Assembly: GCA_001556125.1 (NCBI GenBank) | Contig: LSIG01000008.1 | Span: 13,150 to 77,149 of the forward strand | Direction: 5' to 3' | Source of the DNA: Rhizobiales bacterium CCH10-E5 | GTDB lineage: Bacteria; Pseudomonadota; Alphaproteobacteria; Rhizobiales; Beijerinckiaceae | DNA: 64,000 bases | In this document: piece after piece, positions 31 through 15,455 of the stretch | How the letters are laid out: every line of letters starts with the position of its first letter | How positions within the stretch are numbered: the stretch's first letter is position 1 | Made by a program: the position numbers and the translations under genes | Notes under the pieces: model-generated | The model's input: the letters and a program-made list of their open reading frames with translations, nothing else | What the model was told of the DNA's origin: nothing | Databases searched by the model: none

Positions 31-1044
31 ATGCTTCGCCTGATCGGCCAGCGCCTGATGACGACGATCCCCTCGGTGATCGGCGTCATCATCGTCACCT
101 TCCTGCTGACGCGGGTGCTGCCGGGCGACACGGCGGCCTATTTCGCCGGCCCGGCCGCCTCGCCGGAGGCGATCATCGAGATCCGCAACAAGCTCGGGCT
201 GGATCGGCCGCTGCCGGTCCAGTTCGTCTCTTATGTCACCGCCCTGGTGAAGGGCGATCTCGGCGTCTCGCTGACGACCGGCCAAGCGGTGACGGCCGAT
301 CTGGCGCAGCGCCTTCCGGCCTCGGCCGAACTGACGCTGGCGGGGCTCCTGCTCGCGATGTCGGTGGCGCTGCCGCTCGGCGTGCTCGCGGCCGTCCGCC
401 AGGGCTCCTGGATCGACCATCTCTGTCGCATCGTGGCGACGGCCGGTGTCTCGCTGCCGGTGTTCTTCACCGGGCTGCTGCTGGTCTATGTGTTCTACTT
501 CATTCTGGGCTGGGCGCCGGCCCCGCTGGGGCGGCTCGACGTCTTCGCCTCGGAGCCCGCACGCGTCACCGGGCTCTATCTGGTCGACTCGCTGCTGGCG
601 CGGGATGGCGAGACCTTCCGGGCCGCGCTGGCGCAAATCGCGCTGCCGGCGATCACATTGGCGATCTTCTCGCTCGCTCCGATCACGCGGATGACGCGCG
701 CCTCGATGCTCGCCGTGCTCGGGGCGGATTTCGTGCGGACCGCGCGCGCCAGCGGGCTCTCCAGCCGAAAGGTCATCGGCACCTACGCCTTCCGCAATGC
801 GATGCTGCCGGTCGTCACTACGCTCGGCATGGTGTTCTCCTTCCTGCTCGGTGCCAATGTGCTGGTCGAGAAGGTGTTCGCCTGGCCGGGCGTCGGCTCC
901 TATGCGGTCGAGGCGCTGATCGCCTCCGACTATGCCCCGATCCAGGGCTTCGTGCTGACGATGGCGATCCTCTACGTCGCGCTGAACCTGATGATCGATC
1001 TGCTCTACGGCGTCATCGACCCGCGCGTCCGGCTGGAGGGCTGA
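31..1044 (+). CDS. Dipeptide/oligopeptide-type ABC transporter permease (DppB-like)
   Basis: Inner-membrane permease of a peptide/nickel-type (PepT) ABC importer, 337 residues. An N-terminal transmembrane anchor (about residues 9-28, IGVIIVTFLLTRVLPGD) and the following PepT-type N-domain are typical of DppB. The C-terminal half carries the coupling segment RTARASGLSSRKVI (about 238-251), the EAA-like loop that contacts the ATPase. The start follows an AAAGGGA ribosome site. The next permease begins 4 bases after the stop, so the two are co-transcribed. The substrate-binding protein is not in the window and may lie just left of it. The substrate is unknown; proximity to the AtzH/AtzF genes suggests a nitrogenous compound, which is inference. 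Family call is secure. Confidence 0.92.
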   Translation: MLRLIGQRLMTTIPSVIGVIIVTFLLTRVLPGDTAAYFAGPAASPEAIIEIRNKLGLDRPLPVQFVSYVTALVKGDLGVSLTTGQAVTADLAQRLPASAELTLAGLLLAMSVALPLGVLAAVRQGSWIDHLCRIVATAGVSLPVFFTGLLLVYVFYFILGWAPAPLGRLDVFASEPARVTGLYLVDSLLARDGETFRAALAQIALPAITLAIFSLAPITRMTRASMLAVLGADFVRTARASGLSSRKVIGTYAFRNAMLPVVTTLGMVFSFLLGANVLVEKVFAWPGVGSYAVEALIASDYAPIQGFVLTMAILYVALNLMIDLLYGVIDPRVRLEG

Positions 1045-1048: not shown

Positions 1049-1957
1049 ATGAACGACATGACCAAGATCGATCCCGCCGCGGCTCCTGCGCTGCGCTTCG
1101 AGGCGCCGCCCTCGACCAGCCTGCTGGCACATGCCCGCCACATCGTCTCCGAGAACCCGGTGACCGGGCTCGCCTTTGGGCTCTTCGCGTTGATCCTGTT
1201 CGCGGCGATCTTCGGCCCCTCGCTGGTTCCCTATGATCCGCTGGCCAGCAACACCAACTCGGCCCTTCAAGCGCCGAGCGCGCGGCACTGGTTCGGCACG
1301 GACCAGCTCGGGCGCGACATCTTCAGCCGGGTGATCGTGGCGACGCGGCTCGATTTTGCCATCGCGGTCTGCTCGGTCGCGCTCGTCTTCGCGATGGGCG
1401 GGCTCGCCGGCGTCATGGCCGGCTTCTATGGCGGCTGGGTCGACAAGGTCGTCGGGCGGATCGCCGACACCATCATGGCCTTCCCGCTCTTCGTTCTGGC
1501 GATGGGCATCGTCGCGGCGCTGGGGAACAGCGTGACGAACATCGTCATCGCCACCGCGATCATCAACTTTCCGCTCTACGCCCGCGTCGCCCGCGCCGAG
1601 GCGAATGTCCGCCGCGAGGCCGGTTTCGTGCAGGCGGCGCGGCTTTCGGGCAATTCCGACTGGCGGCTACTGCTGACGCAGATCGTGCCCAACATCATGC
1701 CGATCATGGCGGTGCAGATGTCGCTGACCATGGGCTACGCCATCCTCAACGCGGCGGGCCTCTCCTTCATCGGGCTCGGCGTGCGCCCGCCCACCCCGGA
1801 ATGGGGGATCATGGTGGCCGAGGGGGCGAGCTTCATCGTCTCCGGCGAATGGTGGATCGCCTTCTTCCCCGGGCTGGCGCTGATGACGGCGGTGTTCTGC
1901 TTCAATCTGCTCGGCGACGGCGTGCGCGACCTCGTCGATCCGCAGCGGAGGAATTGA
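1049..1957 (+). CDS. Dipeptide/oligopeptide-type ABC transporter permease (DppC-like)
   Basis: Second inner-membrane permease of the same importer, 302 residues. It has the DppC layout: a cytosolic N-terminal stretch, a first transmembrane helix (about 44-64), the periplasmic segment with WFGTDQLGRDIFSRV (about 81-95) that is diagnostic of the OppC/DppC N-terminal module, then five more helices. The coupling loop ARVARAEANVRREAGFVQAA lies near residue 180. It starts 4 bases after the first permease stops. A palindromic repeat separates it from the ATPase gene, which remains in the same direction. Substrate not determinable from sequence. Confidence 0.92.
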   Translation: MNDMTKIDPAAAPALRFEAPPSTSLLAHARHIVSENPVTGLAFGLFALILFAAIFGPSLVPYDPLASNTNSALQAPSARHWFGTDQLGRDIFSRVIVATRLDFAIAVCSVALVFAMGGLAGVMAGFYGGWVDKVVGRIADTIMAFPLFVLAMGIVAALGNSVTNIVIATAIINFPLYARVARAEANVRREAGFVQAARLSGNSDWRLLLTQIVPNIMPIMAVQMSLTMGYAILNAAGLSFIGLGVRPPTPEWGIMVAEGASFIVSGEWWIAFFPGLALMTAVFCFNLLGDGVRDLVDPQRRN

Positions 1958-1980
1958 GGATGGCTCAGGTCCACCAGGCC

Positions 1981-2055
1981 GTCATTCCCGGCCGGAGCGA
2001 AGCGGAGAGCCGGGAACCTCCGGCGAGAGATGCTCGGGTCAAGCCCGAGCATGAC
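1981..2055. repeat. Intergenic double-hairpin repeat, copy 1 (ATGCTCGGG family)
   Basis: Two adjacent perfect hairpins fill the gap between the second permease and the ATPase. TTCCCGGC (1985-1992) pairs with GCCGGGAA (2009-2016). ATGCTCGGG (2030-2038) pairs with CCCGAGCAT (2044-2052) around the loop TCAAG. The second hairpin recurs nearly unchanged at 11146-11168, including the trailing GACGG, so this is a dispersed element and not a unique terminator. Such palindromic units are common in Hyphomicrobiales intergenic DNA. It may modulate expression within the transporter operon. Confidence 0.75.
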
Positions 2056-2069
2056 GGAGTTGTCCGCCC

Positions 2070-3773
2070 ATGACCGCGCCCCCGCTCCTCGACATCCAGA
2101 ACCTCACCGTCGAATTCGCCACGCGGCGCGGCACGGTTCAGGCGGTCAAGGCGATCGATGTCAGCGTCGCCAAGGGCGAGACGGTGGCGATCGTCGGTGA
2201 ATCCGGCTCCGGGAAGTCGGTGACCTCCTATGCCGTGGTGCGGATCCTCGACCGTGCCGGCAAGGTCGCCGAGGGCTCGATCTCGTTTTCCGGAATCGAT
2301 CTGGTCACCGCGACCGAGACGCAGATGCGCGATCTGCGCGGGCGCGAGATCTCGATGATCTTCCAGAACCCGCGCGCCGCGCTGAACCCGATCCGCAAGG
2401 TCGGCAAGCAGATCGAGGACGTGCTGCTCGAGCATGTCCAGGCGACGCGGGCGACGGCCCGAGAGAAGGCGATCGAGGCGCTGGCCAAGGTCAGGATCGC
2501 GCGACCCGAGGAACGCTACGACGCCTATCCGTTCGAGCTGTCCGGCGGCATGTGCCAGCGCGTCGTGATCGCGCTGGCGCTCGCCTGCCAGCCCCAACTC
2601 CTGATCGCCGACGAGCCGACGACGGGCCTCGACGTCACCACCCAGAAGGCGGTGATGGACCTGATCGTCGAGCTCACGCGCGAGCGCGGCATGTCGACGA
2701 TCCTGATCACCCATGACCTCGGTTTGGCGGCCGCCTATTGCGACAAGGTCGTGGTGATGGAGAAGGGCAACGTCGTCGAGACGGCGCAGGCCAGCGAGAT
2801 CTTCCGCAATCCGCAGCACGCCTATACCCGCAAGCTGATGCAGGCGACGCCGCGCATCGGCATGAGCCTGCGCGACCTGCTGCCGGAGGCGCAGAAGGGA
2901 CCGGCCGCACAGCCGTCCGCTCCCAAGGCCGCGCCGGCGCCCGATGCCGCGCCGCTGATGCGGGTCGAAAACCTGGTGAAGGAGTATCCGCGGCCACAGA
3001 GCGGCTCGCTCTTCGCGAAGCTGATGGGCAAGGCGGAGGAGCCGAAAGCCCCGTTCCGCGCCGTCGACGGCATCAGCTTCAGCGTGGCCAGGGGCGAGAC
3101 GCTCGGGCTCGTCGGCGAGTCCGGCTGCGGCAAGTCGACGACCTCGATGATGATCACGCGGCTGATCGACAAGACCAGCGGCTCGATCCTGTTCGACGGC
3201 ACGGATATCGGGGCGATCCCCGCCAAGCAGTTCGCGGCGTCCGCGCATCGCCGGCGCATCCAGATGGTCTTCCAGGACCCGACCGACAGCCTCAATCCGC
3301 GCTTCACGGCGGAGCGCGCCATCGCCGATCCGATCCTGCGGATGGGCGGGATTTCGGGGCGCGACGCCCTGCGGGCGCGCTGCGAGGAGCTGGCGCAACT
3401 GGTCGGGCTGCCGGTCGAGCTGATCGACCGCTTTCCGCACCAGCTCTCGGGCGGGCAGAAGGCGCGGGTCGGCATCGCGCGGGCGATCGCGCTCGACCCC
3501 GATCTCGTCATCCTCGACGAGCCGACGGCGGCGCTCGACGTCTCGGTCCAGGCGGTCGTGCTCAACCTGCTGCAGGAGCTGAAGGAGCGGCTCGGGATGA
3601 GCTATCTCTTCGTCTCGCATGATCTCAACGTTGTGCGCCTGCTCTGCGACCGGGTGATCGTGATGAAAACGGGCGCCATCGTCGAACAGGGCACGGCCGA
3701 AGAGGTGCTCGGCGACCCGAAGGCGGACTATACCAAGGAACTGCTGACGGCGATTCCCCATCCGCCGGCGTGA
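2070..3773 (+). CDS. Dipeptide-type ABC transporter double ATPase (DppD-DppF fusion)
   Basis: Cytoplasmic energy-coupling subunit with two complete nucleotide-binding domains in one 567-residue chain, equivalent to separate DppD and DppF. Domain 1 has Walker A GESGSGKS (K49), signature LSGGMCQRV and Walker B LLIADEPTTGLD. An Ala/Pro-rich linker at about 275-295 leads to domain 2, with Walker A GESGCGKS, signature LSGGQKARVGIARA and LVILDEPTAALD. Each domain ends with the oligopeptide-family C-terminal extension (NPQHAYTRKLM; DPKADYTKELL). It completes the importer with the two upstream permeases. Fused DppDF ATPases are common in alphaproteobacteria. Confidence 0.93.
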   Translation: MTAPPLLDIQNLTVEFATRRGTVQAVKAIDVSVAKGETVAIVGESGSGKSVTSYAVVRILDRAGKVAEGSISFSGIDLVTATETQMRDLRGREISMIFQNPRAALNPIRKVGKQIEDVLLEHVQATRATAREKAIEALAKVRIARPEERYDAYPFELSGGMCQRVVIALALACQPQLLIADEPTTGLDVTTQKAVMDLIVELTRERGMSTILITHDLGLAAAYCDKVVVMEKGNVVETAQASEIFRNPQHAYTRKLMQATPRIGMSLRDLLPEAQKGPAAQPSAPKAAPAPDAAPLMRVENLVKEYPRPQSGSLFAKLMGKAEEPKAPFRAVDGISFSVARGETLGLVGESGCGKSTTSMMITRLIDKTSGSILFDGTDIGAIPAKQFAASAHRRRIQMVFQDPTDSLNPRFTAERAIADPILRMGGISGRDALRARCEELAQLVGLPVELIDRFPHQLSGGQKARVGIARAIALDPDLVILDEPTAALDVSVQAVVLNLLQELKERLGMSYLFVSHDLNVVRLLCDRVIVMKTGAIVEQGTAEEVLGDPKADYTKELLTAIPHPPA

Positions 3774-3785
3774 TGACGTTCCCCC

Positions 3786-3864
3786 GTCATTGCGAGCACA
3801 GCGAAGCAATCTAGAACGGCAGTGCTCGACGTCCCCTGGATTGCTTCGCTGCGCTCGCAATGAC
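3786..3864. repeat. Long palindromic intergenic repeat (GTCATTGCGAGC type)
   Basis: Large stem-loop between the ABC ATPase and the AtzH-like gene. The left arm GTCATTGCGAGC (3786-3797), ACA, GCGAAGCAATC (3801-3811) is matched perfectly by GATTGCTTCGC (3839-3849), TGC, GCTCGCAATGAC (3853-3864), leaving a 27-base loop. This GTCATTGCGAGC..GCGAAGCAATC unit is a widespread REP-like element in alphaproteobacterial intergenic regions (family knowledge). An open frame runs through it into the next gene but should not be counted as coding. It may act as a transcription or mRNA-stability boundary. Confidence 0.8.
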
Positions 3865-3885
3865 GATAGCCGACCGGAGAAACCC

Positions 3886-4266
3886 ATGATCCTCAACGAT
3901 CCCGCCGTCGTCGCCGAAGTCGAGGCCGCCTTCATGGTCTATGAGAAGGCGCTGAACGAGAACGACGTCGCGGTGCTGGACGCCTGCTTCAAGGATGCGC
4001 CCGAGACGATCCGCTACGGCATCGGCGAAAACCTCTACGGCTTCGGCGAGATTGCGGCGTTCCGAGCGGCGCGCCCGTCCGCCGGGCTGAAGCGCACGAT
4101 CGAGCGCACCGTCATCACCACCTATGGCGACGCCTTCGCCACGGCCAATACGCTGTTCCGGCGCGAGAGCATGGCGGGCAAGATCGGCCGCCAGAGCCAG
4201 ACCTGGGTCAAGTTCCCCGAGGGCTGGCGCGTCGTCGCCGCCCATGTCAGCGCCATCGCCGAGTGA
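3886..4266 (+). CDS. hpxZ: AtzH/HpxZ-like protein (1,3-dicarboxyurea decarboxylase or oxalurate-catabolism family)
   Basis: Small cytosolic protein of 126 residues in the SnoaL/NTF2-like fold family containing AtzH and HpxZ (DUF3225). Recognisable features are EVEAAFMVYEKALNENDVAVLDACF at the N-terminus, the RYGIGENLYGFGEI turn, and the C-terminal QTWVKFPEGWRVVAAHVS. In cyanuric acid catabolism AtzH decarboxylates 1,3-dicarboxyurea to allophanate; in Klebsiella HpxZ belongs to oxalurate use. AtzF, AtzG and AtzE homologues nearby favour the first role, by inference. ATG 3886 is chosen because the upstream open frame is only the palindromic repeat, and GGAGAAACCC precedes this ATG. Confidence 0.8.
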   Translation: MILNDPAVVAEVEAAFMVYEKALNENDVAVLDACFKDAPETIRYGIGENLYGFGEIAAFRAARPSAGLKRTIERTVITTYGDAFATANTLFRRESMAGKIGRQSQTWVKFPEGWRVVAAHVSAIAE

Positions 4267-4336
4267 GCGGCCGCTGCGGGAGACCGCGCGCCCCCTTGCT
4301 CATCCTGCCCTTCCTTCTCCCGACGGCGACAGGGTC

Positions 4337-5023
4337 ATGCAGCCAGGTTCCGCCCCCGTCCGAACCGCAAGGGCCGCCACGGCGCCGGTGACGCGTACCG
4401 AGGCGCTGCGGCTGCAGCTTTCCGATGCGATCGTCTCCGGCCAGCTCGAGCCCGGGACGCCGCTGGACGAACAGGAGATCGCGACGCGCTTCGGCGTGTC
4501 GCGCACCCCGGTGCGCGAGGCGATCCGCCAGTTGTCGGCCTCGGGTCTGGTCAGCGTCCGGCCGCATCGCGGGGCGGTGGTGGCGCTGCCGACGCCCCGC
4601 CAGTTGAACGACATGTTCGAGGCGATGGGGGAGCTGGAGGCGCTCTGCGCCGGGCTCGCCGCCCGCAACATGACCGTGCCCGAGCGGCGGGCGCTGGAAG
4701 CCCTGCACGAGGCGCTGCGGCTGCTCGTCCATGAGGGCGATCCGGCGAGCTATCATGCGAAGAACGAGGCCTTTCACGCTGCGATCTATGCCGGATCGCA
4801 TAATGGCTATCTGGCCGAGCTGACGCTGATGACGCGCACCCGCGTCGCGCCCTTCCGCCGGGCGCAGTTCCGCGCCACGGGCCGCCTCGGCGGTTCCTAT
4901 CGGGAGCATGACCTGATCGTGCAGGCGATCCTGCGTGGCGACCAGCCGGGTGCGCAGGAGGCGATGCGCGCCCATATCGGTATCGTCAGGGATGCGTTCA
5001 GGAGCTATGCGGAGACGCGGTGA
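4337..5023 (+). CDS. GntR-family transcriptional regulator (FadR/FCD subfamily)
   Basis: 228-residue regulator. The N-terminal winged helix-turn-helix is clear (about residues 20-80): LRLQLSDAIVSGQLEPGTPL, then EQEIATRFGVSRTPVREAIR and the wing LVSVRPHRGAVV. The C-terminal all-helical FCD ligand domain (about 90-220) contains the metal-ligand pattern of this subfamily: the D/N-H-x3-H-like NEAFHAAIYAGSHN and late REHDLIVQAI and AMRAHI histidines. It lies between the AtzH-like gene and convergently oriented atzF and probably controls the local nitrogen genes. A perfect TTGCATGCAA palindrome upstream of atzF (6900-6909) is a candidate operator. ATG 4337 is chosen over upstream in-frame starts because the domain begins shortly after it. 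Confidence 0.87.
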   Translation: MQPGSAPVRTARAATAPVTRTEALRLQLSDAIVSGQLEPGTPLDEQEIATRFGVSRTPVREAIRQLSASGLVSVRPHRGAVVALPTPRQLNDMFEAMGELEALCAGLAARNMTVPERRALEALHEALRLLVHEGDPASYHAKNEAFHAAIYAGSHNGYLAELTLMTRTRVAPFRRAQFRATGRLGGSYREHDLIVQAILRGDQPGAQEAMRAHIGIVRDAFRSYAETR

Positions 5024-5056
5024 GGGCAGGTCTCAGGCGGTTGCTCAAACGTGCCG

Positions 5057-6853
5057 TCACCCCACCTTCGCCTGCGCGGCCACGAAGGCGCGCCAGCCGC
5101 CGAACTCCGTCACGTCGCGGGCGCCTTCCGTGGCGATGGTCTCGCAGAGGAAGCCCTTGACGCTCGTGCCGTCGGCCAGCGCGAGCGTGCCGATGCCGAG
5201 CGGGGAGGGGATGCCGGAGACGAAGCGGCCGAAGCCCTCCGGCGGCAGCGACCAGACCTCGAGCGCGATCGCGGCGCCGCCGGCCCCGACACGGATCAGG
5301 CCTGGCCGTGCCGGGGGACCGCCCGGCAGGGCGAAGAGGCGGTAGTCGGCGGTGGTGGTGGTGGCGCGCAGGAAGCTGCCGCCCCGGTCCGTCAGTTCGC
5401 GGTTCAGCGGCATGCCGGAGAGATGCGCGCCGACGACGGCGATCTCGATGGCGTCGGGAGCTGCCCCAACCGGCGCGGGTGTCACGGCGGGATGCGGCAG
5501 GCCGGTCGCGCCGAGCGGCAGCCCGGCGGCGGCATGGAGCGCCTGTCCGATGCCCGCGAGCACGGCATCATGCCCGGTGGGGGCGATCAGCGTCACCCCC
5601 GCCGCCGTACCGTCGGCCGCCAGGCTGGCGGGGATGGCCAGCGCGCAGAGATCGAGCAGGTTGACGAAATTGGTGTAGCGCCCGAGCAGCGAATTGGCGC
5701 CGACGGGGTCCGCGGCCATCTCGGCCAGCGTCACCGGGCGCGGCGCTGTCGGCACCATCAGCGCGTCGATGCCCTTCATTGCCGCTTTGGCGACCAGCGC
5801 GAGTTCGGCGACGCGGTAGCGCGCGGCGAAGGTCTCGGCCGCATCGGGCATAGGCCGGCCGGCGATGACCTGGCGGATCACGGGCAGGATCGCCTCTGGG
5901 TCCTTCGCGAGCAGATCGCGGATCGTCAGATAGCGCTCGGCGACCCAGGGTCCCTCATAGAGCAGGCGCGCGGTCTCGTAGAACGGCGCCATGTCGAGCG
6001 GGACGATCTCGGCGCCGAGGGCCTTGGCGCGCTCGACCGCGGCGGCGAAGCTCGCGGCGGCTGCGGCATCGCCCGCGACGTCGAGATCCTCCGGGCGGGG
6101 CACGGCGATCCTGAGCTTTGGCGGCACCGCGCCTCGCCGGCCCAGCGGCAGGGCGTGGGACCAAGGATCGCCGGCATCGGGGCCAGCTGCGACCGACAGC
6201 ACCGCCCAGGCATCCTCGACGGTCAGGGCAAAGACGGAGACGCAGTCCAGCGTGCGGCAGGCCGGCACGACGCCCGCCGTCGAGACGAGACCGAGGCTGG
6301 GCTTGAGGCCGACGAGGTTCTGCAGTCCCGCCGGTACGCGGCCCGAGCCCGCCGTATCGGTGCCCAGCGCCGCGGGCACGATGCCGGCTGCGACGGCGCT
6401 CGCCGAGCCGGAGCTGGAGCCGCCGGGGACGAGATCGGCGCGGAGCGCATTGCGCGGCACACCATAGGGGGAACGGGAGCCGTTCAGGCCGGTGGCGAAC
6501 TGGTCGAGATTGGTCTTGCCGATGACGATCGCACCGGCCGCCCGCAGCCGGGCGACGACGGTCGCGTCGCATTCCGGCTTATAGGCGAAGGCGGGGCAGG
6601 CCGCGGTGGTGGGCAGTCCGGCGACGTCGATGTTGTCCTTCACCGCGACGGGGATGCCCCAGAGCGTGCGGCCGCGCGGTCCTTCCGCCTGCAGGGCCTC
6701 AGCCTCCGCCAGCACCTCGGCTTCGGGCCGCAGCGTGATGAAGATCGCGGCGTCGCCATGGGCGCGGTGGCGGGCATAGCTGGCGGCAATGGTCTGCGAG
6801 ATGGTGGCGCTGCCATCGAGATGGGCGGCGAGCAGGCTGGTCAGGGTCGTCAC
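5057..6853 (-). CDS. atzF: Allophanate hydrolase
   Basis: Hydrolyses allophanate to ammonia and CO2 (via N-carboxycarbamate), the last step of urea, biuret and cyanuric acid use. 598 residues. The N-terminal amidase-signature domain (about 1-440) has the Ser-cisSer-Lys triad: K72 in AVKDN, S145 in GGSSSGSAS, S169 in GTDTAGSGRVP. The C-terminal domain of about 120 residues (about 475-598, including EIAVVGAHLSGMPLNRELT and the DGTSVKGFLCE motif) is specific to allophanate hydrolases and separates them from generic amidases. Translation begins at GTG. It is divergent from the biuret hydrolase-like gene across a 270-base region holding the sigma-54 promoter. No biotin-dependent urea carboxylase is visible here. 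Confidence 0.93.
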   Translation of the reverse strand: MTTLTSLLAAHLDGSATISQTIAASYARHRAHGDAAIFITLRPEAEVLAEAEALQAEGPRGRTLWGIPVAVKDNIDVAGLPTTAACPAFAYKPECDATVVARLRAAGAIVIGKTNLDQFATGLNGSRSPYGVPRNALRADLVPGGSSSGSASAVAAGIVPAALGTDTAGSGRVPAGLQNLVGLKPSLGLVSTAGVVPACRTLDCVSVFALTVEDAWAVLSVAAGPDAGDPWSHALPLGRRGAVPPKLRIAVPRPEDLDVAGDAAAAASFAAAVERAKALGAEIVPLDMAPFYETARLLYEGPWVAERYLTIRDLLAKDPEAILPVIRQVIAGRPMPDAAETFAARYRVAELALVAKAAMKGIDALMVPTAPRPVTLAEMAADPVGANSLLGRYTNFVNLLDLCALAIPASLAADGTAAGVTLIAPTGHDAVLAGIGQALHAAAGLPLGATGLPHPAVTPAPVGAAPDAIEIAVVGAHLSGMPLNRELTDRGGSFLRATTTTADYRLFALPGGPPARPGLIRVGAGGAAIALEVWSLPPEGFGRFVSGIPSPLGIGTLALADGTSVKGFLCETIATEGARDVTEFGGWRAFVAAQAKVG

Positions 6854-6898
6854 GGGGCTCTCTTTCGCGGCGCCTATCGATTAGGCAAAACTCAAGGA

Positions 6899-6921
6899 GT
6901 TGCATGCAAGGATTATGCAAC
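6899..6921. promoter_or_regulatory. Candidate operator: TTGCATGCAA palindrome and GTTGCAT/ATGCAAC inverted repeat
   Basis: TTGCATGCAA (6900-6909) is a perfect 10-base palindrome. In addition GTTGCAT (6899-6905) and ATGCAAC (6915-6921) form a 7-base inverted repeat with a 9-base spacer. The site is 46 bases upstream of the atzF GTG and about 150 bases upstream of the sigma-54-like box for the opposite operon. The TTG..CAA half-sites resemble FCD-GntR operators, and a GntR regulator is encoded at 4337-5023. Binding is inferred. Confidence 0.5.
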
Positions 6922-7068
6922 GAAAGCGACCGGCGGCTGCGCTGTCGACTGCGGATAGCCGAGGTCGTTTCGGCTCAGATTTCGAATCGCCGGAATAGTT
7001 TCGTTCCGGCAATGGGTTCGGCTTCGCTTCTCATGATCCGATTCCGCTTCCGGCGCTGACTCGCGCTC

Positions 7069-7084
7069 AGGCACGGGCCTTGCA
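7069..7084 (+). promoter_or_regulatory. Sigma-54 (RpoN) -24/-12 type promoter
   Basis: AGGCACGGGCCTTGCA places GG (7070-7071) exactly ten bases from GC (7082-7083), and otherwise matches TGGCACG-N4-TTGCA apart from the leading T. It lies 40 bases upstream of the biuret hydrolase-like start, giving a short leader. RpoN control fits genes for scavenging nitrogen from biuret or allophanate precursors. NtrC sites were not confidently seen. Confidence 0.6.
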
Positions 7085-7123
7085 AAGCTCGTTCCGCTGA
7101 TCCGCGATCGGGGGCGCCGCACC

Positions 7124-7810
7124 GTGAGCCGCATCGAAATTCCTGCCCGGCCCTTTCCGCTCGGCGTCGACATGGCGCGCACCGCGCTGATCATCATCGA
7201 CATGCAGAGGGACTTCCTCGAGCCGGGCGGCTTCGGCGCTGCGCTCGGCAACGACGTCTCCCGGCTGATGGCAGCGGTCGAGCCCTGCCGGGCGATCCTG
7301 GTGGCGGCGCGTGCAGCCGGTATGCTCGTGATCCACACCCGCGAAGGGCACCGGCCCGACCTCGCCGACGCGCCGCCGGCCAAGGTTGCGCGCGGCCCGG
7401 CCGACAAGCGCATCGGTGCCTGCGGACCGATGGGGCGCATCCTGATCCGCGGCGAGGCAGGACACGAGATCATTCCCGCGCTGGCGCCACTGCCGGGCGA
7501 GCCGGTGATCGACAAGCCGGGCAAGGGCGCCTTCTACCAGACCGATCTCGAGCTGATGCTGCGCAACCGCGGCATCGAGACGCTGATGGTGACGGGCGTC
7601 ACCACCGAGGTCTGCGTCCACACCACGGTGCGCGAGGCGAATGACCGGGGCTATCGCTGCCTCGTGTTGGGCGATGCCTGCGCCTCCTATTTCCCCGAAT
7701 TCCACGAGGTGGGTCTGCAGATGATCGCGGCCCAGGGCGGAATCTTCGGCTGGGTTTCGACGACGACGGAGGTGCTGGCCGCGCTCTCCGGGCGGGAGAA
7801 GGCGGCCTGA
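7124..7810 (+). CDS. biuH: Cysteine hydrolase, isochorismatase superfamily, probable biuret hydrolase
   Basis: Probable biuret amidohydrolase (biuret to allophanate plus ammonia), 228 residues, cytosolic. The isochorismatase-fold catalytic triad is readable as D26 (LIIIDMQRDF), K131 (VIDKPGKGAF) and C164 (VTGVTTEVCVHTTVREAN). The motif VIHTREGHRPDLAD and the segment CGPMGRILIRGEAG are typical of the biuret hydrolase/ureidoacrylate-hydrolase-like subgroup. The product of biuret hydrolysis is the substrate of the divergently encoded AtzF, which supports the assignment. A sigma-54-like promoter lies just upstream, and the permease gene follows after 33 bases. A RutB-like activity cannot be excluded from sequence alone. 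Confidence 0.78.
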   Translation: MSRIEIPARPFPLGVDMARTALIIIDMQRDFLEPGGFGAALGNDVSRLMAAVEPCRAILVAARAAGMLVIHTREGHRPDLADAPPAKVARGPADKRIGACGPMGRILIRGEAGHEIIPALAPLPGEPVIDKPGKGAFYQTDLELMLRNRGIETLMVTGVTTEVCVHTTVREANDRGYRCLVLGDACASYFPEFHEVGLQMIAAQGGIFGWVSTTTEVLAALSGREKAA

Positions 7811-7843
7811 TGAGGGGCTGAGAGGCCGGGACAGGAGGGGGAC

Positions 7844-9460
7844 ATGGCGACGACGACGGCGACCGCGACGACGACCTCACCGAAGCTTTGGGCACCGGGC
7901 GACTGGAACGCCCTGTTCGGCTTCGGGACCAACATCCTGGTCAACCTGCTGGTGCTGACCGGGCTCCTGCAATTCGTCCTGAAGATGCCGACGGAGCTGA
8001 TCTACGGGCGCATCCTGCCGGCGCTGGGGCTGATGATGGCGCTCTCGACCGGCTACTATGCCTGGCTGGCCTGGAAGCTCGCCAAGGAGACCGGTCGGGA
8101 CGATGTCTGCGCGCTGCCCTCGGGCATCAGCGTGCCGCACATGTTCGTCGTCACCTTCGTGATCATGCTGCCGATCGCGACGATGACCGGCGATCCCGTC
8201 AAGGGCTGGGAGGCGGGCCTCGTCTGGGTGTTCTTCCAGAGCTTCATCCTGATGATCGGCGGCTTCATCGCGCCCTACATCCGCAAGATCACGCCGCGCG
8301 CGGCGCTGCTCGGCACGCTGGCGGGCGTCTCGATCGCCTTCATCTCGATGCGGCCGGCGCTGGAGATCTTCCTGACGCCGGCGATCGGCCTGGTGTGCCT
8401 GGCGATCATCCTGGTGAGCTGGTTCGGCGGCATCCGCTATCCGCGCGGCATCCCGGCCGGGCTCGTCGCGATCGCCTTCGGCCTCGTGATCGCCTGGGGA
8501 TCCTCGCTCATCGGGCTCGATGTCGGCGGGCTCTCGCTGGCCAAGCTCGGCGCGGCCTTCTCGAATTTCGGCTTCTCGCTGCCGGTGCCGGCCTTCGACC
8601 ACGTCTTCTCGGGCTTCACCTATCTCGGGATCATCCTGGTCACGGCCATCCCCTTCGGCATCTACGATCTGGTCGAGGCGATGGACAATGTCGAGAGCGC
8701 GGAGGCGGCGGGCGACCACTACCCGACGACGCAGGTGCTGACCGCCGACGGCGTCGTCTCGCTGATCGGCTGCCTGATGGGCAACCCGTTCATCAACGCC
8801 GTCTATATCGGCCATCCCGGTTGGAAGGCGATGGGCGGACGCATCGGCTATTCGGCCGCCACCGGGCTGATCGTGATCGTGCTCTGCTGGTTCGGCATCG
8901 TCGCGCTGCTGCTGGCGCTGATCCCGATCGTCGCGATCTCGCCGATCCTGCTCTATATCGGCATGTTGATCGGCGCGCAGGCCTTCCAGACCACGCCGAC
9001 CAGCCATGCCCCTGCGATTGTCCTGGCGGTAACGCCGCATCTGGCGGCCTGGGCCAAGGTGCAGATCGACGGGGCGCTGGGCGCCGCGGGCACGAACGCG
9101 GCGGCTGTCGGCATCGACAAGATGGCCAATATGGGCGTGCTCTATCACGGGCTCGAACTGATGGGCGGCGGGGCGATCCTGTCGGGGCTCGTCCTCGGCG
9201 CCATCGCCGTGTTCGTGATCGAGAAGCAGTTCGTGCAGGCCGCGGCCTTCGCGGCGGCCGGCGCCATCCTCACCTATTTCGGACTGATGCATGGCGAGGC
9301 GATCGGGATCGGCAAGGGGCTGGGCGTGACGCCCTCGATCAGCCTGGCCTATGCGATGGTCGCGGGCTTCCTCTGGTACTGCGGCAAGAGCCTCGCGGCG
9401 GAGGGCTCCGCCAAGACGATGACCACGGAGCCACGCGCCAAGCTGGAGCCGGCGGAATGA
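7844..9460 (+). CDS. NCS2/AzgA-like permease (xanthine/uracil permease superfamily)
   Basis: Polytopic inner-membrane carrier, 538 residues, about 12-14 hydrophobic helices. Family-type signatures are the early LPSGISVPHMFV loop and the helix-8/10 region GIYDLVEAMDNVESAEAAG followed by TADGVVSLIGCLMGNPF, which corresponds to the substrate-site region of AzgA/UraA-type permeases. It sits between the biuret hydrolase-like gene and atzG, overlapping the latter by ATGA, so the imported compound is probably a ring or open-chain urea derivative feeding these enzymes (inference). The Thr/Ala-rich first 15 residues look non-conserved, and a later start cannot be excluded. It differs from the ABC uptake system of the Pseudomonas ADP pathway. 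Confidence 0.82.
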   Translation: MATTTATATTTSPKLWAPGDWNALFGFGTNILVNLLVLTGLLQFVLKMPTELIYGRILPALGLMMALSTGYYAWLAWKLAKETGRDDVCALPSGISVPHMFVVTFVIMLPIATMTGDPVKGWEAGLVWVFFQSFILMIGGFIAPYIRKITPRAALLGTLAGVSIAFISMRPALEIFLTPAIGLVCLAIILVSWFGGIRYPRGIPAGLVAIAFGLVIAWGSSLIGLDVGGLSLAKLGAAFSNFGFSLPVPAFDHVFSGFTYLGIILVTAIPFGIYDLVEAMDNVESAEAAGDHYPTTQVLTADGVVSLIGCLMGNPFINAVYIGHPGWKAMGGRIGYSAATGLIVIVLCWFGIVALLLALIPIVAISPILLYIGMLIGAQAFQTTPTSHAPAIVLAVTPHLAAWAKVQIDGALGAAGTNAAAVGIDKMANMGVLYHGLELMGGGAILSGLVLGAIAVFVIEKQFVQAAAFAAAGAILTYFGLMHGEAIGIGKGLGVTPSISLAYAMVAGFLWYCGKSLAAEGSAKTMTTEPRAKLEPAE

Positions 9461-9681
9461 GCGGTGCCGACCCGAAGGCAGGCTTCGACGCCTCGCGCCA
9501 TTGCGATGCGATGGCGCCGGTGCTGGGGCTGACGATCACGGAGGCGCAGCGGCCGGTGGTGCTGCAGTTCCTCGCCATCGCCCATGGCATGGCCGAGATC
9601 GTCCGCACCGCGCCGATGGAAGAGGACGTCCTGGAACTGGCGCCGGTGTTCCGGCCGGGCCTGCCGGAGGCGACCGCGTGA
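9457..9681 (+). CDS. atzG: AtzG-like small subunit (DUF4089 family)
   Basis: 74-residue protein. The central segment MAPVLGLTITEAQRPVVLQF followed by LAIAHGMAEIV matches the AtzG/HpxX (DUF4089) family, a helical small subunit that binds and stabilises the AtzE amidase, related to GatC binding GatA. It is translationally coupled on both sides: the start overlaps the permease stop (ATGA, 9457-9460), and the stop overlaps the AtzE GTG start (GTGA, 9678-9681). Adjacent atzG-atzE order is the family norm. Short but well supported by context. Confidence 0.85.
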   Translation: MSGADPKAGFDASRHCDAMAPVLGLTITEAQRPVVLQFLAIAHGMAEIVRTAPMEEDVLELAPVFRPGLPEATA

Positions 9682-11072
9682 GCGTCGACGTTTTTGCGCC
9701 GGCCCATCGCATCGCGGCGCAGGTCCGGGAGGGGGACGTGACGGCCCTGGCCGTCACGGAGGCCTTCCTTGGCCGCATCGCGGCGCTCGATCCGGTCGTC
9801 AACGCCTTCACCGACGTCATCGTCGAGCGGGCGCTGGCGCAAGCGCGTGCGGTCGATGCCGCCCGCGCGGCGGGCGCGCCGCTGGGGCCGCTGGCGGGCG
9901 TGCCCTTCGCGGCCAAGAATCTGTTCGATATCGAAGGCCTGCCGACGCGGGCGGGTTCGAAGATCAATCGCGAGCGAGAGCCGGCCGCGCGCGACGCGGT
10001 GCTGGTCGAGCGGCTGACGGCGGCGGGCGCCGTGCTGCTCGGCGGGCTGAACATGGGCGAATACGCCTATGACTTCACCGGCGAAAACGCCCATGACGGG
10101 CCCTGCCGCAACCCGCACGATCCCGCCCGCATGGCCGGCGGCTCCTCCTCCGGCTCGGGGGCGGCCACGGCGGCCGGCCTGAGCCCGCTCTCGCTGGGTT
10201 CCGACACCAATGGCTCGATCCGCGTGCCGAGTTCGCTCTGCGGCATCTTCGGGCTGAAGCCGAGCTATGGGCGGCTGCCGCGCACGCGCAGCTTCCCCTT
10301 CTGCGACTCGCTCGACCATCTCGGCCCCTTCGCGCGCGACGTCACCGATCTCGCGACCGCCTATGACGCGTTGCAGGGACCGGATGCGCTCGATCCGGCC
10401 TGCACGCAGCGGCCGGTCGAACCGGCGCTGCCGTCGCTGCAGGCGGGCATCGGTGGCTTGCGGATCGCGGTCGCGGGTGGGCATTTTGCGACCGACGGCA
10501 TGCCGGAGGCAGCTGCGGCCGTGGCGCTTGTTGCGAAGGCGCTGGGCGCGACGGGAACGGTCGCGCTGGAGGGCGCGGCGATCGCTCGCGCCGCCGCTTT
10601 CCTGATCACCAACAGCGAGAGCGCGACCTTCCATCTCGACCGTCTGCGGGCGCGGGCGGATGATTTCGACCCCGAGACCCGCGACCGCTTCCTCGCCGGG
10701 GCGATGCTGCCGGCGCCCTGGTATGTTCAGGCGCAGCGGGCGCGGCGCTGGTTTCACGACGAGATGATGCGGGTCTTCGCCGATGTCGACCTGATCATCG
10801 CGCCGGCCACGCCCTGTCCGGCGCCTCTAGTCGGTCAGAAAACGCTCGAACTGCGCGGCGAGACCGTGCCGCTGCGGCCCAATCTCGGACTCTTCACCCA
10901 GCCGATCTCGGCGATCGGCCTGCCGGTCGCGGCGGTGCCGGTGTTCGGCGACGGCCTGCCGATCGGCGTGCAGATCATTGCCGCGCCCTGGCGCGAGGAT
11001 CTCTGCCTGCGGGCGGCGTTCGCGCTCCAGCGCGAGGGGGTGTGCGAGGCGCGGGCGCCGGTGCTGGGCTAG
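9678..11072 (+). CDS. atzE: AtzE-like amidase (1-carboxybiuret hydrolase family)
   Basis: Amidase-signature enzyme of 464 residues. The triad is K80 (FAAKNLF), S156 (MAGGSSSGSG) and S180 (GSDTNGSIRVP). In cyanuric acid catabolism AtzE, complexed with AtzG, deaminates 1-carboxybiuret to 1,3-dicarboxyurea, which AtzH then decarboxylates to allophanate. The HpxY alternative (oxalurate pathway) is a close homologue. Gene order AtzG-AtzE with AtzF, AtzH-like and biuret hydrolase nearby favours the triazine/biuret role. Starts at GTG overlapping the atzG stop. No cyanuric acid hydrolase (AtzD) or HpxW-like oxamate hydrolase is in the window, so the upstream step is unresolved. A double-hairpin repeat follows the stop. 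Confidence 0.85.
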   Translation: MSVDVFAPAHRIAAQVREGDVTALAVTEAFLGRIAALDPVVNAFTDVIVERALAQARAVDAARAAGAPLGPLAGVPFAAKNLFDIEGLPTRAGSKINREREPAARDAVLVERLTAAGAVLLGGLNMGEYAYDFTGENAHDGPCRNPHDPARMAGGSSSGSGAATAAGLSPLSLGSDTNGSIRVPSSLCGIFGLKPSYGRLPRTRSFPFCDSLDHLGPFARDVTDLATAYDALQGPDALDPACTQRPVEPALPSLQAGIGGLRIAVAGGHFATDGMPEAAAAVALVAKALGATGTVALEGAAIARAAAFLITNSESATFHLDRLRARADDFDPETRDRFLAGAMLPAPWYVQAQRARRWFHDEMMRVFADVDLIIAPATPCPAPLVGQKTLELRGETVPLRPNLGLFTQPISAIGLPVAAVPVFGDGLPIGVQIIAAPWREDLCLRAAFALQREGVCEARAPVLG

Positions 11073-11073
11073 G

Positions 11074-11173
11074 TCGTCATTCTCGGGCCGCGCTTGCGCG
11101 GACCCGAGAAACTCGTGCCGAAAGAGGCGTATCCGTTTGCAAGAGATGCTCGGGGCAAGCCCGAGCATGACGG
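11074..11173. repeat. Intergenic double-hairpin repeat, copy 2 (ATGCTCGGG family)
   Basis: Lies between the converging atzE and mbfA genes. Hairpin one: TTCTCGGG (11080-11087) plus CCGCG pairs with CGCGG plus CCCGAGAA (11103-11110). Hairpin two: ATGCTCGGG (11146-11154) pairs with CCCGAGCAT (11160-11168) and matches copy 1 at 2030-2052 except in the loop (GCAAG versus TCAAG). It probably serves as a bidirectional transcription boundary here. Confidence 0.75.
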
Positions 11174-11177
11174 ATGA

Positions 11178-12170
11178 CTAGGACCCGCCGATCAGGATGC
11201 CTGCCGCCAGCACCAGCCCGCCGCCGAGCACGATCTGGAAGGCGGCGCGCAGGAAGGGTGTCTCCATGTATCGGTTCTGGATCCAGACGATGGCCCAGAG
11301 CTCGATGAAGACGACGATCAGCGCCACCGTGGTGGCGGTCCAGAAATGCGGGATTAGATAGGGCAGGGCATGGCCGAGCCCGCCCAGCGTGGTCATCACG
11401 CCCGAGGCGAGGCCCCGTTTCCAGGGCGCGCCGCGGCCCGAGAGCTTGCCGTCGTCATGGGCAGCTTCGGTGAAGCCCATCGAGATGCCGGCACCGACCG
11501 AGGCCGAGAGGCCGATCAGGAAGGTGGTGTGGGGGTCCTGGGTCGCGAAGGCGGTGGCGAAGATCGGGGCCAGCGTCGAGACCGAGCCGTCCATCAGCCC
11601 GGCCAGCCCCGGCTGGACCCAGGTCAGCACGAACTGGCGCTTGGCGGCGAGGTCCTCCTCGGAGCGGGCATCGTCGCCGAGATGCTCTGCGGTGAGGCCC
11701 TGGGCCTTGGCCTGATGCCCGGCTTCGGCCGCCGCCAGCGTACCGAGGAGCTTGCGCGTCTCGACATCGGTCGAGCGGCCGGCAGCCGCGACATAGAAGT
11801 CTCGCGCCTGCCGCTCCATATCCTCGGCCTCGGCCCGGATCTGGTCGAGGCCGAGGTTTTCGACCAGCCAGACCGGCCTGCGTGCGTAGAAATCCGCGAC
11901 ATGTTCGCGCCGGATCGGCAGGACGACGTCGCCGAAGCGCTGCTGATAGAGCGCGAGCAGACGCTGGCGGTGGCCGTCCTCCTCGCTCGCCATGCCGTCG
12001 AAGACCGCGGCCGAGGCCGGATAGGCCGTCCGCAGCTTCTGCGCGTAGATCGCGTAGATGCGGCCATCCTCCTCTTCCGACGCAATCGCCAGGGCGAGGA
12101 CCTCCTTCTCGGAGAGTTCGTCGAAGCGACGCTTGCCGCCAAAACCCGGAAGGGAAAAACGAGAGAGCAT
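11178..12170 (-). CDS. mbfA: Membrane-bound ferritin MbfA (erythrin-VIT1 fusion)
   Basis: Iron exporter/peroxide-protection protein of alphaproteobacteria, 330 residues. The N-terminal ferritin-like di-iron domain (about 15-155) shows repeated ExxH-type ligands (ASEEEDGRIYA, MASEEDGHRQRL, LAAAEAGHQAKA). The C-terminal CCC1/VIT1-like membrane domain (about 180-330) includes PGLAGLMDGSVSTLAPIF and GISMGFTEA. The first in-frame ATG (12182) lies inside the Irr palindrome, whereas ATG 12170 is preceded by GAGG six bases away, so 12170 is preferred. In Agrobacterium and Bradyrhizobium mbfA is repressed by Irr under low iron; the perfect ICE motif here supports the same control. Confidence 0.93.
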   Translation of the reverse strand: MLSRFSLPGFGGKRRFDELSEKEVLALAIASEEEDGRIYAIYAQKLRTAYPASAAVFDGMASEEDGHRQRLLALYQQRFGDVVLPIRREHVADFYARRPVWLVENLGLDQIRAEAEDMERQARDFYVAAAGRSTDVETRKLLGTLAAAEAGHQAKAQGLTAEHLGDDARSEEDLAAKRQFVLTWVQPGLAGLMDGSVSTLAPIFATAFATQDPHTTFLIGLSASVGAGISMGFTEAAHDDGKLSGRGAPWKRGLASGVMTTLGGLGHALPYLIPHFWTATTVALIVVFIELWAIVWIQNRYMETPFLRAAFQIVLGGGLVLAAGILIGGS

Positions 12171-12180
12171 CGAGCGCCTC

Positions 12181-12205
12181 ATAATTTAGAATAGTTCTAA
12201 ATTAT
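12181..12205. promoter_or_regulatory. Irr-binding ICE box upstream of mbfA
   Basis: A perfect 11-base inverted repeat, ATAATTTAGAA (12181-12191) and TTCTAAATTAT (12195-12205), separated by TAG. The core TTTAGAA-N3-TTCTAAA matches the iron control element bound by Irr in Hyphomicrobiales. It abuts the mbfA ribosome-binding site, which fits repression when iron is scarce. AT-rich and plainly distinct from the surrounding GC-rich DNA. Confidence 0.9.
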
Positions 12206-12262
12206 GGTGGCTGGCCTGTCGATGCAAGCGCGCAGGGCAGGCGCCAGGCATGCCCAGAATGA

Positions 12263-12290
12263 CGATACCCGGCCGATGGGCCGGGTATCG
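12263..12290 (-). terminator. Stem-loop downstream of the superoxide dismutase gene
   Basis: Perfect 12-base stem CGATACCCGGCC (12263-12274) with GGCCGGGTATCG (12279-12290) and a GATG tetraloop (read on the + strand), 25 bases beyond the sod stop. There is no strong U-run after it on the minus strand, so it may be a weak or factor-assisted terminator. Confidence 0.5.
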
Positions 12291-12314
12291 ATCCTGTTCG
12301 CGAGGCTGGCTCGT

Positions 12315-13061
12315 TCAGACGGTCAGCTTGCCGGCCTTGGCAGCGGCGTAGCGCTCGTTGACCTTCGCCCAGTTGACGACGTTCCACCACCCCTTGAGGT
12401 AGTCGGCGCGGCGGTTCTGGTACTTCAGGTAATAGGCGTGCTCCCAGACGTCGTTGCCGAGCAGGACCATCTGCTTGTCCATGAGCGGGCTGTCCTGGTT
12501 GGGCTTGCTCGCCAGCGTCAGCTTGCCGGCCTTGTCGACCGTGACGAAGACCCAGCCCGAGCCGAAGACGCGCAGGCCCGCCGCCTCGAAATCGGCCTTG
12601 AACTTGTCGAATCCGCCGAGATCCTTGGTGATTGCGGCGGCGACGTCGCCGGTGGGTGCGCCACCGGCGCCAGGCCCCATGATCTCCCAGAACATGCTGT
12701 GATTGGCGTGGCCGCCGCCGGCATTGCGGATCGGCACGCGGACCGCCTCCGGCAACGAGCCGATGTCGCCGAGAAGTTCGTTGATCGGCTTCGATGCGAG
12801 GACGCCATGGTCCTTGGCGGCATTGTTAAGGGCCGTGACGAAGGCCGCGTGGTGGCGGGTGTAATGGATGTCCATCGTCATCGCGTCGATATGCGGCTCG
12901 AGCGCCGCGGCCTCATAGGCGCGCTTGGGCAGGGAGAAGGGGCCAGCCGGCGCGGCCGGGGCGGCGGCCTGTGCCCAGACGCGGGGAGCGGCGCTCACGG
13001 CGAGGGCGGCGGCGCCGACCCCGAGGAGCGAGCGGCGGGACAGGAATGCGGTGGTCTTCAT
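12315..13061 (-). CDS. Fe/Mn superoxide dismutase with Tat signal peptide
   Basis: Converts superoxide to hydrogen peroxide and oxygen, 248 residues. The metal-binding motifs of the Fe/Mn family are present: H66 in MDIHYTRHH, the GGGHANHSMFW histidine, and DVWEHAYYLKYQNRR supplying Asp and His. The N-terminus carries a twin-arginine signal, SRRSLLGVGAAALAVSAAP, with likely cleavage after AQA near residue 32, so the enzyme should act in the periplasm, unlike typical cytosolic SodA/SodB. Metal preference cannot be fixed by eye. GAGG precedes the ATG. It is co-oriented with mbfA but separated from it by a stem-loop and the ICE box. Confidence 0.9.
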   Translation of the reverse strand: MKTTAFLSRRSLLGVGAAALAVSAAPRVWAQAAAPAAPAGPFSLPKRAYEAAALEPHIDAMTMDIHYTRHHAAFVTALNNAAKDHGVLASKPINELLGDIGSLPEAVRVPIRNAGGGHANHSMFWEIMGPGAGGAPTGDVAAAITKDLGGFDKFKADFEAAGLRVFGSGWVFVTVDKAGKLTLASKPNQDSPLMDKQMVLLGNDVWEHAYYLKYQNRRADYLKGWWNVVNWAKVNERYAAAKAGKLTV

Positions 13062-13303
13062 CGGGATCCTCCATGAGCGGTCGCGGTATCGGATTGCCCC
13101 AACGTTATGCCGGAGCCGCGTGCGCGGATGCAGAGCATATACGGATTCTTGGGCCGCGCGGTTCCTCCGGTCTCGGTCGCTGCAGGGCAGGTAGGGCAGG
13201 ACGCTCTCATGAAGCTACGCCCAAAAGTTGAGTTAACCCTCGGTTTACCGCGTTTCGCTAGGGTTCGGTAGGAATGCCGAGGCCCGAAAAGGACCCGCCT
13301 ACC

Positions 13304-14758: not shown

Positions 14759-14826
14759 CGAGGCCCTTCCAGCCGACCGGTTTTGTTGCGTCAGTCGTTG
14801 TAGAGTGAGTTGTCGGGCCCCGCGTC

Positions 14827-15405: not shown

Positions 15406-15455
15406 TTTTACCAGTCTACCGCGATGCTGATTGGCGCAATCCTGGGTCGTGTCAC

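Follow-up and report, generated by a model that had tools for sequence, protein, structure and literature searches.

Two catabolic routes that pass through 1-carboxybiuret have been described apart from each other. In the cyanuric acid operon atzDGEHF of Pseudomonas sp. ADP (plasmid pADP-1, NC_004956), AtzD provides this compound from cyanuric acid, and AtzG, AtzE, AtzH and AtzF act on it in order (PMC6219798); AtzEG and AtzH have been argued to avoid biuret and urea as dead ends (PMC6219798). In the triuret pathway of Herbaspirillum sp. BH-1 and R. leguminosarum 3841, TrtA is the first enzyme, followed by TrtB, BiuH and AtzF (PMC7948467, PMC12625717); carboxybiuret has a half-life of about 20 min before turning into biuret (PMC7948467). 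Triuret itself is both an impurity of urea fertiliser and a product of urate oxidation (PMC7948467). In this report, we analyse a 64,000-nucleotide stretch of Rhizobiales bacterium CCH10-E5 (contig LSIG01000008.1; “the window” hereafter), which holds a cluster of genes related to both routes. We propose that this locus is quite probably a nitrogen-scavenging operon for triuret, in which the two half-pathways are joined into one linear route rather than set out as two branches.

The published accounts keep the two halves separate. AtzEG is named in PMC7948467 as an existing carboxybiuret hydrolase but is tied there to Pseudomonas ADP, and TrtA is paired with TrtB, BiuH and AtzF. The trtA-trtB-biuH-atzF loci are described in PMC12625717, in whose passages AtzEG figures as a hypothesis on herbicide evolution; at one place in the abstract the genes are given as “trtA, biuH, and atzH”, while the passages speak of atzF and trtB. 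R. leguminosarum 3841 is described as having no atzE homologue (PMC5806882). The 2018 paper on AtzH reports that atzGEH clusters have a much wider distribution than the genes for cyanuric acid, and that they lie beside ggt, beside genes for allophanate hydrolase and an ATP-binding cassette (ABC) transporter, and in other settings, contexts taken as little evidence on function (PMC6219798). None of the reports found in the open-licence literature, supplementary figures excluded, describes a cluster of TrtA with AtzEG. The locus looks like a junction of two half-pathways, so far described separately, in one BiuH-free triuret operon.

With the TrtA-TrtB-BiuH-AtzF pathway the locus shares a TrtA-type first enzyme, AtzF as the last enzyme and triuret as the predicted starting compound; unlike that pathway, it is predicted to pass carboxybiuret through AtzEG and AtzH and not through TrtB or spontaneous decarboxylation to BiuH. 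Its permease has a predicted UraA/SLC26 fold, whereas the triuret loci of nitrifiers carry a bmpA-nupABC ABC transporter (PMC12625717). The pADP-1 operon has the same AtzG, AtzE, AtzH and AtzF, with the same order of action on 1-carboxybiuret, but in the window this compound is predicted to arise from triuret via TrtA, not from cyanuric acid via AtzD, and a ring-opening enzyme is absent. The window also differs from pADP-1 in its GntR regulator (LysR in pADP-1), its divergent atzF, and its Dpp-type and UraA/SLC26-fold transporters. The atzGEH clusters of Comamonadaceae and Burkholderiales, thought to serve unnamed nitrogen compounds, likewise bring together AtzF, an ABC transporter and atzGEH (PMC6219798); an isochorismatase-like hydrolase goes unmentioned in the text on those clusters. 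Klebsiella hpxXYZ (CP125156), which acts on oxalurate, encodes a homologous trio of a GatC-like protein, an amidase and an NTF2-fold protein. The window differs from it in having no match to HpxW/Ggt (gamma-glutamyltransferase), in having AtzF, with TrtA in the same operon, and in the separate place of its AtzE in the tree described below.

The proposed route would run as follows. Triuret would be taken up by the UraA/SLC26-fold permease, the Dpp-type ABC importer, or both. On the strength of its residues and of 60% identity to the characterised enzyme, TrtA would convert triuret to 1-carboxybiuret and NH3. By analogy with characterised homologues, AtzEG would then convert 1-carboxybiuret to 1,3-dicarboxyurea and NH3 ahead of its decay to biuret, AtzH would yield allophanate and CO2, and AtzF would release two NH3 and CO2. 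Each triuret would give four NH3; biuret would be bypassed, and BiuH would be dispensable. The trtA-permease-atzG-atzE operon would be driven by sigma-54, probably under nitrogen limitation, and the GntR protein may serve as the substrate sensor.

The hydrolase is of the TrtA type

The gene at 7124-7810, which the original prediction labelled biuret-hydrolase-like, proved to be TrtA-type instead. Its product scored 274.2 bits against the BiuH equivalog model NF050097, short of the cut-off of 370, and its best matches in the Protein Data Bank (PDB) are the TrtA entries 6xix and 6xj4 (281 and 276 bits); two BiuH enzymes come behind them, at 255 and 223 bits. The 6xix protein is TrtA of Herbaspirillum sp. 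BH-1, which is specific for triuret and has 1-carboxybiuret as its product (PMC7948467). The residues that set the specificity of TrtA apart from that of BiuH are F35, N41, A134, E160, Y187 and I205 (BH-1 numbering), with Y, Y, S, D, T and V in BiuH (PMC7948467). The window protein has F37, N43, A136, E162, Y189 and I207, that is, six of six from the TrtA set and none of six from the BiuH set. It also retains the catalytic triad (D26, K131 and C164) and the substrate-binding residues E74, K134 and Q204. Its identity is 60% to the published TrtA and 53% to BiuH.

Across the hydrolases of the loci that we fetched from other genomes (L numbers denote loci and G numbers genomes), these residues are bimodal, reading FNAEYI or close to it, or YYSDTV or close to it; the exceptions are two odd, more distant members (L093 and L090). 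In a tree of 60 of the 191 available hydrolase rows, a partly random draw, the BiuH-type proteins form one clade (support 100/100), and the window protein lies outside it. The missed curated cut-off and the lack of any BiuH residue led us to reject a BiuH identity for this protein, which we infer to be a triuret hydrolase with 1-carboxybiuret as product. The BiuH branch named in the title of the original prediction is therefore absent from the locus. No BiuH-type gene was found in the 64-kb window beyond this hydrolase itself, and biuH, which accompanies trtA in the published trtA-trtB-biuH-atzF loci, is not beside it here. The syntenic relatives G002, G310 and G375 have one hydrolase of the TrtA/BiuH class each (E<=1e-55, among the matches listed).

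The AtzE, AtzG, AtzH and AtzF proteins

The best PDB match of the window AtzE is 6c62 (E=2.8e-154), which agrees with pADP-1 AtzE in sequence throughout the 146 residues compared; the identity of the window protein is 56.0% to pADP-1 AtzE (411 bits) and 50.8% to Klebsiella HpxY (358 bits). AtzF has an allophanate hydrolase, 4gyr, as its best PDB match, and AtzG has no match in that database. All nine pocket residues of AtzH (Tyr22/Arg46, arginine-rich) are kept in the window protein. They were tried as a discriminator and failed, as Klebsiella HpxZ has the same nine; this protein therefore cannot tell an AtzH role from an HpxZ role. The arm that leads from 1-carboxybiuret through AtzEG and AtzH to AtzF can be regarded as well supported.

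The outgroup of the AtzE tree sits on a very long branch, and we therefore used only the inner supported groups. The window AtzE falls inside a set of 13 rows (100/96), which come from TrtA-bearing loci. HpxY of Klebsiella forms a group with the set around pADP-1 AtzE (96/89). Two AtzE proteins encoded next to TrtA have sisters from other settings: that of L145 (the same place as L180) pairs with pADP-1 AtzE (100/89), and that of L146 with the AtzE of an Acidithiobacillus caldus plasmid that carries Ggt (L092; 100/99). The three rows from Hpx or Ggt settings do not group together (three changes), and the contexts are not cleanly parted. The original prediction had set against itself a phylogeny in which AtzE, AtzG and AtzH all group with HpxXYZ; in our tree, which was built for AtzE, the window protein does not group in this way, and AtzE and HpxY are not sharply separated.

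The L092 plasmid (A. caldus p1, 1294-12994) brings together genes for xanthine dehydrogenase, ureidoglycolate lyase, an AtzD-like ring-opening amidohydrolase, XdhC, AtzG-AtzE-HpxZ and gamma-glutamyltransferase. This cluster could make up a route from urate to oxalurate that uses an AtzD-type enzyme.

Linkage of TrtA and AtzE across genomes

A scan of genomes for TrtA gave 579 candidate loci, of which the best 80 were fetched. Within the fetched stretches, AtzE is present in 9 loci, BiuH in 15 and both in 1. A second search, which started from AtzE and not from TrtA, covered 397 genomes of the order of G002 and gave 102 matches in 98 of them. At least 48 of these 102 AtzE genes have a TrtA/BiuH-type hydrolase within 10 kb. 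We read the fetched stretches of these 48 loci, some of which end at contig ends, for the specificity residues, and the hydrolase nearest AtzE is TrtA-type (five or six of six residues) in all 48. The same loci hold AtzH (44), BiuH (33), AtzF (23), AtzD (17) and the permease (8), together with AtzG in at least 31 (BLAST missed AtzG in 17); a Ggt/HpxW match, sought with one A. caldus Ggt reference, occurs in none of them. A crude gene caller missed TrtA in many loci and was not the basis of these counts.

The association extends to whole genomes. AtzE is present in 44 of the 46 genomes with a window-like TrtA (at least 64% identity); among all 397 genomes the count is 98 (Fisher p = 1.6e-28, kinship uncorrected). 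In 23 genomes with a window-like TrtA, the search at E<=1e-55 showed just one hydrolase of the class; AtzE is present in 21 of these. The AtzD family PF09663 occurs in one of nine genomes with both TrtA and AtzE, and not in the syntenic G002. A search with Klebsiella HpxY in the class of G405 matched 4 of 274 genomes: TrtA adjoins AtzE in two of the matches (L180 and L181), Ggt is present in one (L182), and the fourth (L148) has neither TrtA nor Ggt in its short flanks. Four further genomes with TrtA and the permease (L024, L055, L043 and L029) gave no AtzE-grade match, the best being 39% identical, in the genome of L055; in L024, L055 and L043 BiuH adjoins TrtA.

The exact gene arrangement of the window recurs in L002, L139 and L140, and L001, the relative closest in sequence, has AtzF, TrtA, AtzG and AtzE. 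Plasmid records with AtzE were sampled as well (12 of 27 fetched). A plasmid of Terrarubrum flagellatum carries a single collinear operon, running from a substrate-binding protein gene through dppBCDF, hydrolase, permease, atzF, atzG and atzE to hpxZ, and its hydrolase has the TrtA residues. Linked TrtA and AtzE genes come in several different arrangements (L002, L007, L015, L023, L036, L056, L084 and L125), and a further common type reads BiuH-(ABC)-TrtA-AtzG-AtzE-AtzH, often with AtzD. Thus, the notion of both branches in one locus does not apply to the window, given the TrtA residues of its hydrolase, but does describe relatives, with BiuH in 33 and AtzD in 17 of the 48 loci.

Two observations concern these relatives in their own right. 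L023/L132/L169 is a single locus with BiuH, AtzD, AtzF, AtzE, AtzH and TrtA, and may be a hub for carboxybiuret, with cyanuric acid and triuret as its two sources and both branches as outlets. In two BiuH-TrtA-AtzE loci, a gene resembling 5-formyltetrahydrofolate cyclo-ligase lies between AtzE and AtzH (L125, 10637-11446; L127, 5373-6365); its product is a candidate for the carboxybiuret decarboxylase step.

Putative control of the operon

About 40 bases 5' of trtA lies a -24/-12 element, AGGCACGGGCCTTGCA, with one mismatch in the 12 specified positions of TGGCACGNNNNTTGCA (TGGCACG-N4-TTGCA), which we take to be the sigma-54 consensus and used for scoring. The window contains two such matches, with 0.22 expected, and two or more arose in 3 of 100 shuffles. 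Of 136 regions upstream of trtA, 34 contain the core GGCAC-N5-TTGC without a mismatch (0.58 expected from the same loci) and 59 contain it with at most one mismatch (4.6 expected); all of the exact matches and nearly all of the wider set belong to window-like TrtA. These upstream regions include many close kin (Bradyrhizobium) and are not independent. Among genes for BH-1-like TrtA, 2 of 35 have the one-mismatch core, as expected for a TrtA inside an operon. The element in front of trtA thus suggests RpoN control, probably by nitrogen limitation.

A palindrome, TTGCAT-N9-ATGCAA, lies 5' of the divergent atzF. Both of its arms are kept in L139, one letter is changed in L140, and the right arm is lost in L002. 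It may be the operator of the GntR regulator.

Alternative explanations

In the scheme of the original prediction, 1-carboxybiuret is split between two parallel branches, one of spontaneous decarboxylation and the BiuH-type 7124 enzyme, the other of AtzEG and AtzH, both ending at AtzF. The second arm has stood up well; the biuret arm has not, given the residues of the hydrolase and the single hydrolase of its class in G002, G310 and G375. It could be said for the scheme that the hydrolase is 53% identical to BiuH and reaches 274 bits on the BiuH model, and that BiuH and TrtA occur together in 33 of the 48 AtzE loci of relatives. But the cut-off of 370 is missed, none of the BiuH residues and all six of the TrtA residues are present, the BiuH clade (100/100) excludes the protein, and a source of carboxybiuret would be missing, as AtzD has no match in the window or in G002. 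We regard this scheme as very improbable. Since TrtA yields the very compound on which AtzEG acts, the supposed parallel branch is most likely the missing supplier of carboxybiuret; a locus without BiuH also fits the dead-end-avoidance logic of AtzEG and AtzH. A role in the breakdown of cyanuric acid fed by AtzD was rejected on the same absence of an AtzD match in the window and of PF09663 in G002. Catabolism of oxalurate, which had been the main rival in the original prediction, would make AtzG, AtzE and AtzH the counterparts of HpxX, HpxY and HpxZ, converting oxalurate to oxamate, with the hydrolase and AtzF left for other ureides. NCBIfam does name the AtzH gene HpxZ, and the nine pocket residues are equal in HpxZ; moreover, the grouping of Klebsiella HpxY with pADP-1 AtzE and of L092 (Ggt) with L146 (TrtA) means that sequence fails to part the AtzE and HpxY functions cleanly. 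The rival is weakened by the failure to match HpxW/Ggt either in the window or in any of the 48 loci that pair AtzE with TrtA, by the presence of AtzF, for which oxalurate has no need, and by AtzE, which is nearer to pADP-1 AtzE (56.0%) than to HpxY (50.8%) and lies in the TrtA-linked set of 13 rows (100/96); AtzH does not discriminate. We thus rejected oxalurate as the first choice, on the Ggt result and the AtzE tree, and hold it to be very unlikely.

A further possibility is that two modules merely lie side by side, trtA and the permease to handle triuret, and dpp-atzGEH-atzF-gntR to handle some different ureide or amide imported by the ABC system, so that their juxtaposition has little metabolic meaning. 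In G384 and G203, an ABC-AtzE-AtzH-GntR module is indeed far apart from the TrtA locus (L135-L138), with AtzF beside the ABC-AtzE module in G203; L094 has the second module and L086 most of it, with no TrtA in 19 kb; 57 of 80 TrtA loci have neither AtzE nor BiuH; and in other bacteria atzGEH lies near genes for allophanate hydrolase and ABC transporters (PMC6219798). This explanation does not account readily for the genome-level co-occurrence (AtzE in 44 of 46 genomes with window-like TrtA vs 98 of 397), for the joining of TrtA and AtzE in several gene orders, with a BiuH-type enzyme never the nearer one in 48 loci, or for the match between the product of TrtA and the substrate of AtzEG. We consider it unlikely.

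Several points nevertheless weigh against the linear triuret route that we prefer. Its weakest link is that the characterised TrtA is a cousin and no close orthologue of the window protein. The BH-1-like TrtA proteins form a clade of their own (100/99), with the window protein outside it in the remaining TrtA-residue group, and this clade is drawn next to BiuH (94/77) and not next to the group of the window, on a tree whose root depends on one very long branch and is unreliable; the function of the window protein therefore rests on residues and context. The analysis covered the 64-kb window of the source genome, and BiuH may lie elsewhere in that genome. About seven candidates were scored per genome, so a second hydrolase may have been missed in relatives. 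The co-occurrence counts are uncorrected for shared ancestry. BiuH is lacking in 15 of the 48 loci, some of which are cut short by a contig end. Of the 80 TrtA loci, 57 have neither AtzE nor BiuH in the fetched stretch, many of them from Bradyrhizobium. The proposed route leaves L029 unexplained, which has no BiuH in its stretch and no AtzE-grade match in its genome, and L001 has no permease between TrtA and AtzG. AtzE occurs with an ABC importer but without TrtA nearby in L086 and L094, the modules lie apart in G384 and G203, and 18 of the 98 genomes with AtzE lack a TrtA/BiuH-type match (E<=1e-55); AtzEGH must therefore have other feeds.

Gene inventory, transporters and neighbouring genes

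The features of the locus are collected in Table 1. The genes for the AtzH/HpxZ-like, GntR, AtzF, AtzG-like and AtzE proteins are all where the original prediction had placed them, as judged by NCBIfam and Pfam scores, and so are those for the hydrolase and the permease; its gene list omitted the Dpp/Opp-type ABC importer directly 5' of atzH. The pADP-1 AtzD reference has no match in the 64 kb. The HpxW-like reference, one Ggt from A. caldus, likewise had no match in the window. Open frames with such high scores on curated families are not due to chance. The hydrolase, permease, AtzG and AtzE genes form a tight operon, with atzF divergent from it; the atzG start overlaps the permease stop, and the atzE start the atzG stop, by a few bases.

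Table 1. Features of the locus (positions within the 64-kb window)
Feature	Position	Strand	Basis
DppB/OppB-type ABC permease	31..1044	+	PF00528, PF19300; Opp2B-like, below equivalog cut-off
DppC/OppC-type ABC permease	1049..1957	+	PF00528, PF12911
Fused DppDF-type ABC ATPase, two ABC domains	2070..3773	+	two PF00005 stretches
AtzH-type 1,3-dicarboxyurea decarboxylase (elsewhere annotated HpxZ)	3886..4266	+	NF033625, 189.7 bits (cut-off 135); PF11533
GntR/FCD transcriptional regulator	4337..5023	+	PF00392 and PF07729
AtzF allophanate hydrolase, amidase and C-terminal AH_C domain	5057..6853	-	TIGR02713, 779 bits (cut-off 511); PF01425 and PF21986
Palindrome TTGCAT-N9-ATGCAA, 5' of atzF	6900..6920	.	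candidate GntR operator
Putative sigma-54 (RpoN) -24/-12 element of the trtA operon	7069..7084	+	11 of 12 specified consensus positions
TrtA-type triuret hydrolase (predicted), isochorismatase-like	7124..7810	+	PDB matches, residue set, BiuH model below cut-off
Permease, UraA/NCS2/SLC26 fold; candidate triuret transporter	7844..9460	+	predicted fold
AtzG-type GatC-like subunit	9457..9681	+	PF13318, 42.2 bits (cut-off 24)
AtzE catalytic subunit of the predicted 1-carboxybiuret hydrolase	9678..11072	+	NF006631, 698 bits (cut-off 461); TIGR02715 above cut-off

The permease had been described as NCS2/AzgA-like. This holds for its predicted fold, which is of the UraA/NCS2/SLC26 elevator type, but not for any sequence family: the protein has no Pfam match even at E<=10, and no PDB sequence match. 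It tracks TrtA, lying on the same strand at most 3 kb downstream in 64 of the 80 TrtA loci. In two plasmids, it bears the RefSeq name “regulator” (L084, 5334-6935; L085, 7208-8791), probably an annotation error that has spread through a family for which Pfam has no model. The binding protein of the Dpp/Opp-type importer, if there is one, lies outside the window. Relatives of this importer adjoin atzE in L136, L137, L086 and L094, and it accompanies atzE, atzH or atzF in some relatives.

To the right of the operon (11178-25632) are genes with matches to the MbfA iron exporter, superoxide dismutase and a chemotaxis cluster (CheA, a receptor, CheR and CheB), and beyond this cluster a nitrilase-family gene with a weak match to N-carbamoylputrescine amidase. 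Seventeen identical bases, AAGCCCGAGCATGACGG, occur at 2041-2057 and 11157-11173, both intergenic and next to inverted-repeat-like sequence; these copies look like dispersed intergenic repeats.

Implications

The sister relationship of pADP-1 AtzE and the L145 AtzE, which adjoins TrtA, is in line with a broader and more tentative idea. AtzEGH might at root be a machine for salvaging triuret (1-carboxybiuret), with TrtA-AtzEG-AtzH-AtzF as the natural and more frequent use of its enzymes in Alphaproteobacteria, and the pADP-1 operon might have arisen when AtzD replaced TrtA. We advance this origin as a possibility only, somewhat less likely to be right than wrong.

For the family, the link between TrtA, AtzG and AtzE suggests, for roughly half of the AtzE genes that were sampled in the order, a concrete source of carboxybiuret, namely triuret. 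The locus provides a candidate triuret permease from a group without a Pfam family, and the operon would be placed under sigma-54. It also predicts a second route for triuret, one that would bypass biuret.

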